From contig JAMOPD010000193.1 of NCBI GenBank assembly GCA_027064745.1, positions 1-12,727 on the forward strand: a stretch of DNA of 12,727 bases. The letters are read 5' to 3'. Shown here one piece after another: positions 4,870-10,730 of this stretch; position 1 is the first letter of the stretch; each line of letters starts with the position of its first letter. The notes beneath the pieces are model-generated. The model was given only the letters and a program-made list of their open reading frames with translations, was not told the origin of the DNA and made no database searches. A program made the position numbers and the translations under genes. The DNA is from Thermococcaceae archaeon (lineage in GTDB: Archaea; Methanobacteriota_B; Thermococci; Thermococcales; Thermococcaceae).

Positions 4870-6189
<1,320 letters not shown>

Positions 6190-6219: not shown

Positions 6220-6236
6220 TATCATCGCCAGTGATA
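6220..6236 (-). promoter_or_regulatory. TGM operator of the mal operon
   Basis: On the minus strand the site reads TATCAC-TGGCG-ATGATA. It matches the Thermococcales glycolytic motif TATCAC-N5-GTGATA at 11 of 12 defined positions. This is the known target of Tgr/TrmBL1, and a gene of that family lies about 2 kb away. The site starts in the TATA box and covers the region up to the expected transcription start, the arrangement reported for repression in the absence of maltodextrin. Confidence 0.85.
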
Positions 6237-6290: not shown

Positions 6291-8198
6291 TCAATTAATA
6301 ATACGGGCTATACAAAACGACCATGGATTTAGATATCCTTTGTCTAAATGACCAGCTAACAGCTTGTAGTCTGAAGTTAGTTCAATTCTCTGTCTGCTAT
6401 TGGAATAATTGATTGCAACAAGAATCTGTTCATCTCCGTATACCCTCTCATAGACCAGCAGCCCATCCCTGAAAATCAGTGGCTTAAATACCCCTACTTG
6501 AAGGGCTTTGCTTTTGCGCCGCAGCTTTATCAGCGCTTTTGTAACCTTCAGTATCTCCCAATCCCATCTTTCCGGATTCCATTCCATCAAAGCCCTTGAG
6601 CGCTCCATGGGAGAGCCATCTATGTTCCTAAGTCCTATCTCATCCCCGTAGTACATCGATGGGATACCTTTGTATGTCATCAAAAAAGCAAGTGCGCAGA
6701 GATACTTTCTCCTATCATTGACAAGCCCAAGAAAACGCTCCACATCATGATTATCCAAAAAATTGTACATAAGAAACTCGGCGGGTCCATAGTATGCACT
6801 CAGAAGCTCAAGCCAGTTTAGGAATTCCCCTGCATTCATCTCGTTGTAGACAAAGAATCTCAGAAAGGCCTCATATAGAGGATAATTCATTGTTCCATGG
6901 AATTTATCAAAAATCCAGAGTCTGGCATCATCCATAACCTCGCCGATAAGGTATGCATCCTCCGGCAGTTTATACCTGATCTCACGCCACAGCTCAGGTG
7001 AAACACCATGGGCAACATCAAGCCGCCAGCCATTGACACCTTTCTCAAGCCAGTGCTTCATCACGTTAGCTATGAAACGCCTGACCTCTGGATTCTCATG
7101 GTTCAGGCGGGGCATAAGCCAGACAGAGAAGAAGGTTTCATAGTTCCAGCCGAGTTTCTTAAGCTTTTCTGATTTATCTCTCTGCGACTCCTCAGAGCTG
7201 AGAACTTCCAGAAATCCCTCCGATATCACAGGAAACTTGACAATACGATAAAAATTTCTGTATCTGCTCTTCCTGCCATTTTTTACAACATCCTGAAAAC
7301 AAGGATGGAAAAAGCTCGTGTGATGGAATACACCATCGAGAATTAACCTGATGTCACTTTTTTTCAATTCCTTTACGAGTCTGTTAAAAGCCTCATCTCC
7401 TCCCAGCCTGCGGCTCACATGATAATAGTCCGTGACGTCGTAACCATGATACGTCTTTGATTTAAAGATCGGTGTTAGATACAGGGCATTTATGCCAAGC
7501 CCCCCAATGTAGCCAAGCCTCTGCAGAATTTCCCAGAGCTTACCATCCCTTTCAGCAAAGCGATCAGGCATTATCTGGTAAAAAACTCTGTCAAGCACCC
7601 ACTCAGGGAAGGAATATTTCTTGGGGTATGCTCTAAAATCTCCATACTCCACAACTCCATCCTGAGTGTGAATCTCAAAGTGATACTCCAGCTTTTCCTT
7701 CATGGGGAGAGTTGTCTCAAAATAATCGAAGAGATCATCAACAGCTTTTTTCCGCATCTCCATCCTATTTTCAGAGATAAGATATACCCTACGTGCCTTT
7801 CCTTTTAATGCCCTAAAACGCACATAGATTCTATCTCCAAACAGGTAGAGGTACGTAAGGGAGGGGTGGTGGTAAAATTCCTCACCGGAAAAAATTCTTG
7901 CTACACTTACTTCATCTTCCATCTTGTAGGAGAGCCTCCTGTAAAATGCTCTCTCGGGATTTTCAGGATCAGGGATTCTCGTGCCCTCAACGGAGAATGC
8001 ATAATACCAGAAGCCTTCAGGCAGCTCAACTTTTATGCTCCATCTGTTACCATTTTCCTTCATCCTGAAGCTCCCTTCATTGAAGGCATTGAAATTTCCA
8101 AGGAGATATGCATAACTTCCCTCCTTTGGAATTGAGAATTCAACAGAGGCCACCTTTCCCATAACGTCATCATCTCTGAATGCGAAAGTTTTATACAT
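6291..8198 (-). CDS. Cyclomaltodextrinase / maltogenic amylase (GH13)
   Basis: Cytoplasmic GH13 enzyme of 635 residues with no signal peptide; it probably opens imported cyclodextrins and shortens maltodextrins. Conserved regions: LDGVFHH (region I, Asp288), MPRLN (region V, 362-366, close to the MPKLN signature of the neopullulanase/cyclomaltodextrinase subfamily), GWRLDVAH (nucleophile Asp394), GEVMDD (acid/base Glu420) and FLDNHD (Asp485). The N-terminal roughly 75 residues (YLLGNFNAFNEG, PEGFWYYAF, DPENP) resemble a CBM48 starch-binding domain, followed by a CBM34-like domain. This extra N' domain is known from archaeal enzymes such as Pyrococcus furiosus PFTA. The frame opens at GTG 8210, but ATG 8198 is chosen because GGTGGTGG lies just upstream. 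It is upstream of malE in the same orientation and divergent from the regulator. Exact product specificity cannot be read from sequence. Confidence 0.92.
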   Translation of the reverse strand: MYKTFAFRDDDVMGKVASVEFSIPKEGSYAYLLGNFNAFNEGSFRMKENGNRWSIKVELPEGFWYYAFSVEGTRIPDPENPERAFYRRLSYKMEDEVSVARIFSGEEFYHHPSLTYLYLFGDRIYVRFRALKGKARRVYLISENRMEMRKKAVDDLFDYFETTLPMKEKLEYHFEIHTQDGVVEYGDFRAYPKKYSFPEWVLDRVFYQIMPDRFAERDGKLWEILQRLGYIGGLGINALYLTPIFKSKTYHGYDVTDYYHVSRRLGGDEAFNRLVKELKKSDIRLILDGVFHHTSFFHPCFQDVVKNGRKSRYRNFYRIVKFPVISEGFLEVLSSEESQRDKSEKLKKLGWNYETFFSVWLMPRLNHENPEVRRFIANVMKHWLEKGVNGWRLDVAHGVSPELWREIRYKLPEDAYLIGEVMDDARLWIFDKFHGTMNYPLYEAFLRFFVYNEMNAGEFLNWLELLSAYYGPAEFLMYNFLDNHDVERFLGLVNDRRKYLCALAFLMTYKGIPSMYYGDEIGLRNIDGSPMERSRALMEWNPERWDWEILKVTKALIKLRRKSKALQVGVFKPLIFRDGLLVYERVYGDEQILVAINYSNSRQRIELTSDYKLLAGHLDKGYLNPWSFCIARIIN

Positions 8199-8279
8199 AT
8201 TAACCACCACCCTATTTTAGTATCACTACCGATGTTTAAACTGATGCAAGTGAATATTAAAATCTTTGGAGGCGTGAAT
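8199..8279. promoter_or_regulatory. Divergent regulator/GH13 control region with degenerate TGM
   Basis: This 81-base gap holds one intact TGM half-site, TATCAC at 8221-8226. After five bases comes ATGTTT, which matches GTGATA at only three of six positions. The palindrome TTTAAA (8235-8240) can serve as TATA box on both strands. It would give starts near 8263 (plus) and 8211 (minus), each just before a ribosome site: GGAGG at 8268-8272 for the regulator, GGTGGTGG for the GH13 gene. The motif would then lie downstream of the TATA box for GH13 and upstream of it for the regulator. An alternative TATA for the regulator is CTATTTTAG at 8212-8220. Confidence 0.5.
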
Positions 8280-9305
8280 ATGAACGAGGAAGAGATTGTT
8301 GAAAAACTGCAGAAGCTTGGGCTAACTAAGTATGAAAGTCTGGCATATATAACTCTTCTAAAGCTTGGCCCTTGTAAGGCAACAGATGTAACAAAGGAAA
8401 GCGGTATCCCACACACACGAGTCTATGATGTTCTGAGCTCCCTTCACAGAAAGGGATTTGTCGATGTTATGCATGGCACACCAAGACTCTACAAGCCAGT
8501 TAACCCAGAGGTTGTACTTGAAAAGCTCAAAGAAGAGTTTATAAAGGACATAGACTCGTTAAAAGAAGCATTCCTTGAGCTATATCGTTCAGTTCATGGC
8601 GAAGAGTTGCCAGAAATTTGGACAATTCACGGCTTCGAAAATACACTTGAAAGAGCAGAATATATTGTCAGAACTGCAAAGTATGAAGTACTAATCAATA
8701 CCCCTTTTGAGTTCCTTTGGCTACTTAGAGAGGAAATAAAGAAAAGAAGAGACATTGTTTTTGTTATAATAAGCAATTTTGATGAAGTTCCAGACTGGCT
8801 CAAAAAAGACAACATAATACTGGCCAGAAGCGGTGGGGCCCCGTGGCTTATGGCAAGTTGGATAATAGGTGATATTGACTATGCTTTATTCTTCGGAGCA
8901 TTGCCAAGGGATAAAAGAAAAGAAAAATTCTATTCATTCTGGGCCAAGAGTCCAAAGATAATCCAGAACTACATGCACTGGTTTTACACAATTTACTTAG
9001 ACAACAGCAAAATTGTTAAGCCAATTGAATATGAAAACCTTGGAAAGCCACTGAGTCTTGTCAACATCAGGACACTTATAACTGTTCTCAAGCACACTTC
9101 CCTTCCGAAGAAGGTCGAAGTTGTGGGCAGACTCGTTGAGAGTAAAGAGCCCATAAACCTCGAAGGCCAGGTGGTTGAATATGAATACACACCCCTAACC
9201 GCAAGCATAACAATTCAGGACAAAAGGGGACGAGAATGGAAAGTTGGTGGGCTTGGAAGCTACTTTGAGGACATTGAAGGGGAAAAGTTCATACTTCTTG
9301 AGTAG
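8280..9305 (+). CDS. tgr: TrmB-family sugar-responsive regulator (Tgr/TrmBL1 type)
   Basis: Transcription factor of 341 residues, close to the usual TrmB length of about 340. An N-terminal winged helix-turn-helix (about 10-75) contains a likely recognition segment in ATDVTKESGIPHTRVYDVL. It is followed by a coiled-coil-like linker and a C-terminal TrmB sugar-binding domain from about residue 110 (IWTIHGFENTLERAEYIV onward). In Thermococcales, Tgr and TrmBL1 bind the TGM motif, repress sugar uptake and glycolytic genes, activate gluconeogenic genes, and release DNA when maltotriose or similar sugars bind. The TGM at the malE promoter and the half-site at its own promoter fit this. The frame extends 16 codons upstream, but ATG 8280 is chosen for the GGAGG at 8268-8272. 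It could instead be a strictly local TrmB paralogue; TGM sites across the genome would decide. Confidence 0.9.
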   Translation: MNEEEIVEKLQKLGLTKYESLAYITLLKLGPCKATDVTKESGIPHTRVYDVLSSLHRKGFVDVMHGTPRLYKPVNPEVVLEKLKEEFIKDIDSLKEAFLELYRSVHGEELPEIWTIHGFENTLERAEYIVRTAKYEVLINTPFEFLWLLREEIKKRRDIVFVIISNFDEVPDWLKKDNIILARSGGAPWLMASWIIGDIDYALFFGALPRDKRKEKFYSFWAKSPKIIQNYMHWFYTIYLDNSKIVKPIEYENLGKPLSLVNIRTLITVLKHTSLPKKVEVVGRLVESKEPINLEGQVVEYEYTPLTASITIQDKRGREWKVGGLGSYFEDIEGEKFILLE

Positions 9306-9314
9306 GTGGTTGAT

Positions 9315-9383
9315 ATGAATTTACTTGCATTTGAATACCTACCTATGAAAGTAGCAGGTGCTTATTTAAGTAAGGGCAGGTGA
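9315..9383 (+). CDS. 22-codon leader ORF, partial duplicate of the glgA start
   Basis: An ATG preceded by AGGTGGTTGAT opens a 22-codon frame ending in TGA. Residues 3-15 ([13 protein letters not shown]) match GlgA residues 5-17 ([13 protein letters not shown]) at 11 of 13 positions. Its stop codon lies inside the glgA ribosome site AGGTGA, and it is in the same frame as glgA, separated only by that stop and two codons. It may be a degenerate tandem duplication, a translated coupling leader, or both. The second half (AYLSKGR) does not resemble GlgA. Confidence 0.5.
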   Translation: MNLLAFEYLPMKVAGAYLSKGR

Positions 9384-9439
9384 GTAAAAATGAAAGTCCT
9401 CTTATTAGCCTTTGAATATCTACCTGTGAAAGTAGGCGG
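9321..9439 (+). repeat. Imperfect direct repeat of 38 bases, offset 81
   Basis: The copy at 9321-9358 and the copy at 9402-9439, inside the glgA coding start, are identical at 31 of 38 positions by hand count. Two of the seven differences are at third codon positions of synonymous changes around TTT GAA TAY CTA CCT. The offset of 81 is a multiple of three, so the reading frame is kept. Confidence 0.85.
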
Positions 9440-10730
9440 ACTGGCTGAGGCAGTTACAAGCATAGCAGAAGGACTGGCAAAGGTGGGACATGAAGTTCTC
9501 GTCTTTACACCCTCACATGGCCGCATCGAAGGGGAACAGGTAGCAGATTTCAGAATCACGGCATTCGGAGGAGAGTTTGAGGTCAAAGCATATGAAAGGA
9601 ACCAGAACGGTGTTAGAGTGTTTGCCTTGAGTGATGTCCTCCTCGATAATCCCGATGTTTATGGTCCTGGGTGGGAGGGACTGCTTCAAAAGACGGTTCA
9701 TTTTGGAAAGGCAAGTGCAGGCCTGCTCAATGAGCTCCTGAAGAATGAGAAAAAGCCTGAAGCCCTGCATGCCCATGACTGGCATACGGTCTTTGCAGCA
9801 GCCCTCATCAAGAAGTATTTCCACATTCCCCTAACTGCAACAATCCACAGGCTCAACAAATCCAAGATACCCGGCCACTTCTTCCATGATGCTCAGGTTG
9901 GAGAGCTGGCGCCCTACCCAGATATAGACCCCGAGCACACGCTTGCATACATTGCCGATGCAGTAACAACCGTCAGCAAAAGCTACATGTGGGAGGAATG
10001 GGGATTCTTCGGGATGTTTGAGGGGAAAGTAACCCACGTCTTCAACGGCATAGACTGCTCCTTCTGGAACGAGGCATTCCTGAGTGGAGATAGGAAGGAG
10101 CGCAGGAAAAAAATCCTCGAAAAGTTCGGCATGAGCGATGGAAAAACCTTCATGTTCATAGGTCGCTTTGACAAGGCTCAGAAAGGTGTTGATACGCTCT
10201 TCCATGCGATAGAACTGCTTTCCAAAGACCCTGCGTTCAATGAGATGCGCTTTATCGTGATAGGCAAAGGCGACCCTGGGCTTGAAAGGTGGGCTCACGC
10301 AATGGAGAACCGCTTCCCCAACTTCAAGGCTGTGACGAGACTCCTCAAGAGGGAGGAGGCCAGGGAGCTCTATGGTTCTGTGGATTTTGTCATAATCCCC
10401 TCCTATTTCGAGCCCTTTGGCTTAGTGCAGCTTGAAGCAATGTGCCTCGGGGCGATTCCGATAGCGAGCGCCGTAGGAGGCTTGAGAGACACGATAATCG
10501 ACATAGATGCTGATCCTGAGAACGCCACCGGAATCCTCGTACCTCCGAGAGATTCATTCGCTCTGGCTAGGGCGATGATAAGGGCAAAGGAGCTTGATGA
10601 GGAGACCTTGAACAGGTTAAGGACAAACGGTAAGGTAAGGGTTAAGGCATTCACATGGGAATCAGCTTGTAGAAGATATGTAGAGGTCTACCGGGATAAC
10701 ACAGATAAAGCAATATCCTTCATCCGCTAA
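9390..10730 (+). CDS. glgA: Glycogen/starch synthase (GT5)
   Basis: Cytoplasmic glucosyltransferase of 446 residues that extends alpha-1,4-glucan from a nucleotide-glucose donor and so builds the glycogen store. It has the GT-B fold of GT5. The N-terminal donor loop KVGGL is at 14-18 and HAHDWHT at 127-133. The E-x7-E motif is EPFGLVQLE with Glu341 and Glu349, followed by GGLRD at 363-367. The length is typical of compact archaeal GlgA (about 440) rather than the about 480 of bacterial enzymes. ATG 9390 follows AGGTGA at 9378-9383. A TATTTAAG at 9363-9370 might act as a private TATA box with a start near the ATG; otherwise it is co-transcribed with the regulator 84 bases upstream. Its stop overlaps that of rnp2 by four bases. 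Donor preference (UDP- or ADP-glucose) cannot be read here. Confidence 0.95.

Follow-up and report, generated by a model that had tools for sequence, protein, structure and literature searches.

The window—the whole stretch of DNA analysed, 12,727 nucleotides of contig JAMOPD010000193.1 from a Thermococcaceae archaeon—carries the gene of a TrmB-family sugar regulator upstream of the glycogen synthase gene glgA. The spacer between the two genes measures 84 nt and contains a small open reading frame (ORF). The features of this junction are as follows, all on the plus strand:

8280..9305, plus strand, TrmB-family sugar regulator gene (Pfam PF11495 and PF01978), stop codon TAG at 9303–9305
9304..9308, plus strand, AGGTG resembling a ribosome site, part of copy 1; it overlaps the TAG of the regulator and aligns with 9379–9383
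9315..9383, plus strand, 22-codon ORF with ATG start and TGA at 9381–9383, made up of copy 1 of the glgA start followed by GTAG and filler
9321..9354, plus strand, core of copy 1, 34 nt, from the repeat alignment
9355..9379, plus strand, filler CAGGTGCTTATTTAAGTAAGGGCAG, 25 nt, between the copies, without significant match
9380..9389, plus strand, second spacer copy with the glgA ribosome site AGGTGAG (9379–9385), comparable to GTGGTCAAAA in locus L036
9390..10730, plus strand, glgA, glycogen synthase (GT5), full length with 446 aa (PF08323, PF00534; full-length relatives)
9402..9435, plus strand, core of copy 2, 34 nt, within glgA, from the repeat alignment

The longest ORF of the regulator spans 8232–9305. 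A start at 8280 appears likelier, since the MNEEE encoded there sits behind a ribosome-site-like GGAGGCG and since many relatives, among the matches listed, align only from residue 9–13; G047, one of the two nearest relatives, aligns from residue 1. On the other side of this gene, the longest ORFs of an amylase gene (to 8210, minus strand) and of the regulator (from 8232, plus strand) diverge within 8198–8280, 21 nt apart; with the likelier starts at about 8198 and 8280 the distance would be about 80 nt, and a weak TrmBL1-like site with 3 mismatches is found at 8221–8237.

The small ORF has a ribosome-site-like sequence of its own, as the original prediction held: AGGTG at 9304–9308 lies in front of it, and 9295–9314 pairs with the 16S rRNA tail at −10.8 kcal/mol. 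At its other end, the TGA of the small ORF overlaps the ribosome site of glgA. The latter is predicted to be strong with −12.1 kcal/mol (−13.4 in G047 and −14.0 in G053, the other of the nearest relatives; median −10.6 over 80 loci). In this survey and in that of the intergenic gaps, three of 83 loci were skipped—two for short upstream DNA and one for a broken glgA.

The cores at 9321–9354 and 9402–9435 form a direct repeat of 34 nt with 85% identity and an offset of 81 nt. The counts given originally—11 of 13 residues identical between the ORF and GlgA residues 5–17, 31 of 38 bases (counted by eye) and a spacing of 81—are correct. The repeat reaches further in the 5′ direction than first stated: with a 6-nt gap and one 1-nt gap it extends from AGGTG (9304–9308 versus 9379–9383) to GTAG (9351–9354 versus 9432–9435), and the longest exact word common to the aligned copies has 9 bases. 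Of 2000 shuffles that preserve dinucleotides, none reached the repeat score. With thresholds of offset 25–300, at least 28 nt and at least 78%, this is the sole direct repeat in 152,577 bases of the genome—the window plus 20 contig stretches; at the same thresholds, 400 kb of the relative G013 hold six direct repeats, one of which has an equal score. Outside the repeat, the sequence preceding copy 2 and that following copy 1 are no more similar to the flanks of the other copy than shuffled sequence (1753 and 1789 of 2000 shuffles, respectively, reached the score), which fixes the ends of the repeat. A duplicated unit extending into the coding end of the regulator (CTTCTTGAGTAGG versus CTTATTTAAGTAAGG) was rejected, as its flank alignment is no better than that of shuffles. 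Two similar copies thus lie next to each other, oriented alike and matching better than chance allows, as in a partial tandem duplication.

A scan of the genome collection yielded two close relatives, besides a Bacteroidales locus that is unrelated. The nearest relatives come from metagenomes and bear the titles Thermococcaceae archaeon and Thermococcus sp.; their GlgA is 93% (L002, taken as G053) and 90% (L003, taken as G047) identical to that of the window. In G053 and G047, the regulator TAG is followed by GTGATCGGA and GTGGTCAAAA, respectively, and then by the glgA ATG—9 and 10 nt without any repeat—and both alignments display a single-copy, undivided junction. More broadly, glgA start regions were obtained from 82 of the 93 other family genomes, the remaining 11 being without a usable glgA start; none of these 82 relatives is a strain of the window's own species. 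The GlgA N-terminal motif was scanned for in three frames and up to 300 nt upstream of glgA (shortest 114) at all 83 loci: it occurs in the window and in 0 of the 82 relatives. A search with 9306–9500 in 94 genomes gave 16 that matched, and the first 72 bases of this query were matched by the window's own genome only. Because the junctions of G053 and G047 are undivided and the motif is absent from all 82 relatives, the duplication is most likely specific to the window's lineage. The undivided junctions in both nearest relatives also support the earlier suggestion of a duplication that left a scar between regulator and glgA. One further upstream repeat, at locus L038 (score 18), was rejected as a glgA-start copy: its AAGGTGGGCGG aligns to glgA codons 14 onward, and with its position about 105–135 nt ahead of glgA it probably belongs to the regulator's end.

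Overall, the repeat is real, and the junction most likely arose when a gene start was partially duplicated in tandem, apparently in this lineage only, leaving an ordinary mutational scar. We consider it probable that about 56 bp were duplicated within this lineage and that the leftover is a scar without demonstrated function. The copied unit would comprise the glgA ribosome site, the start codon, and the first 14 codons. Slippage or end-joining might have occurred at the short word GTAG(G), which is found at the regulator stop (the region reads GAGTAGGTG) and in glgA codons 15–16 (codons 14–17 read AAAGTAGGCGGA); from the first GTAG to the second, this would give a unit of 56 nt (4 + 10 spacer + 42 coding). 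The second glgA start would have landed directly behind the first—with the 25-nt filler presumably formed at the joint—and the downstream copy, in frame with the remaining glgA, would serve as the working start. An in-frame loss of 6 bases and a single replacement would since have altered the upstream copy. Its frame would cover 12 codons of copy 1 and run for ten further codons via GTAG and the filler to the stop; if translated, it would yield a 22-residue by-product, probably without function.

These steps would connect the repeat and its absence from the relatives examined with the spacer arithmetic: 56 + 25 − 6 = 75, which equals the 84 nt of the window minus the 9 nt of G053. The regulator tail and copy 1 form a single alignment with the junction of the two relatives, gapped by 6 nt at GGTGCT and, versus G047, by a further 1 nt. 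The upstream copy thus occupies the position of the relatives' glgA start and keeps most of their codons minus six in-frame bases, namely the GGTGCT of their ATGAAGGTGCTTTTACTTGCA. Behind the filler, GTGAGTAAAA precedes the glgA ATG and resembles the GTGGTCAAAA of G047. The codons AAA GTA are common to both copies, whereas G053 and G047 have AAG and GTG or GTT, which is expected if the duplication postdates the split. Similarly, the two relatives carry GTAGG at the regulator stop and GTGGG or GTTGG in glgA; hence, the second GTAGG word appears to be new in the window's lineage.

Short tandem duplications at microhomology are a general mutational class. The junction resembles them in its short head-to-tail unit, the few bases shared at its proposed ends and its apparent confinement to one lineage; it differs by the 25-nt filler at the joint and by copies that have since diverged. 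GTAG(G) stands at both proposed ends, and a word this short may recur by chance. The filler at 9355–9379 has no evident relation to glgA or the regulator. Searched within a 42-base query against the 83 loci and 20 stretches of its own contigs, it matched itself and otherwise words of 9–11 nt among the best 15 matches listed. The duplication scar does not account for this filler, which counts against it.

The divergence of the copies bears on their age. Over 11 aligned codons (33 bases) they differ at five bases, with three synonymous codons (CTT/TTA, GCA/GCC, and TAC/TAT for copy 1/copy 2) and one replacement (ATG/GTG). Where both relatives agree, copy 2 shows a new state at three bases (CTT→TTA, GCA→GCC) and copy 1 at one (GTG→ATG), and the two relatives leave the direction of TAC/TAT undecided. 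The three changes of copy 2 itself all preserve the residue. Since 5 of 33 bases differ, the duplication is probably not very recent. Hence, the earlier description as a recent duplication under decay holds for the duplication, and 'recent' is doubtful, with three of the five differences on the glgA side. For comparison, among third positions where the two relatives agree, the window branch differs at 63 of 169 for the regulator and at 62 of 255 for glgA. Copy 1 thus seems to have decayed less than expected of a copy long without use, and copy 2 appears to have moved at a normal rate, though the numbers are small. A useless copy would be expected to change at least as fast per site, which—on these small numbers—speaks against the scar. 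Copy 1 may be under constraint, copy 2 may have been imported, or the difference may be due to chance, with counts too small to claim selection.

An imported copy 2 would mean that uneven recombination brought in the glgA of a related lineage, together with its own upstream bases, and placed it behind the start already present. Copy 1 would then be what remains of the resident start, copy 2 would be the incoming one, and the filler would be upstream DNA of the donor. This would fit the little decay of copy 1 and its TTA CTT GCA—codons of the relatives kept there and not in copy 2. It would also fit the plain identities, whose closest pair changes across the junction: G047–G053 for the regulator (82.6%, versus 81.6% for window–G053 and 79.6% for window–G047) and window–G053 for glgA (84.9%, versus 82.3% for G047–G053 and 81.5% for window–G047). 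However, AAA GTA is shared by both copies and absent from the two nearest relatives, the first 72 bases of 9306–9500 have no other match in 94 genomes, and in 150-nt steps the identity to G053 is unchanged at the junction (84.7, 82.7, and 80.7%), shifting only from about 9582. States shared by two of the three genomes and new versus other family members were counted as well, using rows with at least 55% identity, at least 60% coverage and no internal stop (54 for the regulator, 82 for glgA, and 18 for the downstream gene). At codon positions 1 and 2, window plus G053 share four such states in the regulator (other pairs 3 and 1), eight in glgA (1 and 3) and 15 in the downstream radical-SAM gene (2 and 5). 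At third positions, the corresponding counts are 16 (2 and 12), 11 (1 and 10), and 9 (4 and 4). These site counts suggest no clear change of ancestry, with regulator positions 1 and 2 hardly decisive, and we regard an imported glgA as unlikely. Within glgA, the tract 9582–10331 is 88–93% identical to G053 in 150-nt steps, with 74–87% on either side, reflecting either rate variation or a recombined tract.

Alternatively, the open state of the small frame might be what is kept, with the peptide itself being irrelevant. The duplication would have put 84 nt between regulator and glgA, which should end termination–reinitiation between the two, and ribosomes might instead pass from the regulator to the small ORF and on to glgA. 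In Haloferax and Escherichia coli, reinitiation is nearly lost at about 20 nt according to PMC10666635; hence, the small ORF could matter. The geometry fits such a passage: the small ORF starts 9 nt past the regulator stop and stops 6 nt before glgA, within its ribosome site, and the gap of copy 1 versus the relatives, which falls within the frame, has a length divisible by three (6 nt). In the two nearest relatives, the regulator stop lies inside the glgA ribosome site at a gap of 9–10 nt, and 19 of 64 loci have a gap of at most 11 nt. This resembles archaeal termination–reinitiation as described by Huber et al. (2023, PMC10666635) in that stops fall in or beside the next ribosome site. Coupling is efficient there at overlaps of 4 or 1 nt and already much weaker at 13–14 nt; in the present case, translation of the small ORF is putative. 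Moreover, glgA has its own ribosome site, whose pairing is stronger than the median of the loci, and across the 64 loci with an upstream regulator (window included) the gaps span 5–84 nt with 32 between 30 and 60 nt, so that coupling is no fixed trait of the family. In addition, 2603 of 20,000 base shuffles of the spacer contain a frame that begins within the first 30 bases and either has 20 or more codons or stays open up to the end of the spacer. Such a handover of ribosomes is thus improbable in our judgement, and that the accident became one at once—the copied gene start forming a 22-codon stepping stone between two coupled genes—is still less probable.

Upstream-ORF leader peptides are a known class, and a small ORF with a ribosome site ahead of a biosynthetic gene resembles them. 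A leader peptide or attenuator would act on glgA via its peptide or via a hairpin masking the ribosome site of this gene. At 37 °C, bases of the small ORF do pair at −19.0 kcal/mol with the filler and with the glgA ribosome site, and 9315–9395 gives a z of −2.69 (4 of 200 shuffles as low). For 9306–9400 and 9285–9440, z is only −0.75 (44 of 200) and −0.22 (73 of 200). In the model, the structure is unfolded at 85 °C, with only a rearranged stem of −1.1 kcal/mol at 75 °C—the growth temperature being assumed from the family. Because its significance varies with the stretch taken and no fold persists at 85 °C in the model, the hairpin was rejected as not robust. Rfam gave no match at E values up to 1 for 9000–9700, and a scan for promoters and terminators of bacterial type, not built for archaea, found none in 9200–9500. 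The small ORF is absent from 82 of 82 relatives examined, and conservation of its frame with excess synonymous change across relatives was accordingly not found. This case departs from the known class by the lack of conservation and of a robust RNA structure, and by a sequence that is explained by copying of glgA. The earlier alternative of a kept leader peptide found no support, given the motif in 0 of 82 relatives and the frequency of comparable open frames among the spacer shuffles; we deem regulation of glgA by such an element very improbable. Absence of the ORF from close relatives, together with broken copies, had originally been named as the mark of a functionless decaying duplication: the absence was found and broken copies were not, since the whole duplication is missing there.

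An assembly artefact joining two strains might produce a similar picture in a draft genome. The genome consists of 424 contigs with 85% completeness and 3.9% contamination and looks like a metagenome assembly. However, assembler words are far longer than the 9 bases of the longest exact word of the aligned copies. Since its similarity ends at codon 15, copy 1 would also be no working glgA start of any strain. An artefact is hence highly unlikely.

Among the papers listed in literature searches, titles and opening lines of abstracts contain nothing on the regulator–glgA junction or on such a repeat. The junction is a minor illustration of how duplicating a gene start can give rise to a short, spurious ORF that has a ribosome site and encodes a protein-like sequence, which is relevant when small proteins or leader peptides are called from single genomes. 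If ribosomes were indeed handed on via the small ORF, a stepping-stone ORF could be born in one mutation.

In locus L132 of G013, the ribosome site and start of a gene (9223–9258), presumably that of ribosomal protein L15e, resemble its own C-terminal coding stretch (9473–9510) with 84% over 38 nt; the start reads SKMGMYKY and the C-terminal stretch SKMGMVKY. Stops or a split frame interrupt glgA in G029 (C1:558651–559867) and G023 (C1:307314–308662), two genomes each listed as 99% complete. The TrmBL1 motif appears as TATCAC-N5-GTGATA in PMC4706686. No TrmBL1 operator at up to 3 mismatches lies in 9306–9389, and the five matches with at most 3 mismatches are, as a set, no more than chance (mean 4.36). 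One site, TATCATCGCCAGTGATA at 6220–6236, is one mismatch from the motif, lies just upstream of a solute-binding-protein gene (4870–6186, minus strand), and is perhaps a candidate operator of the sugar-uptake block.
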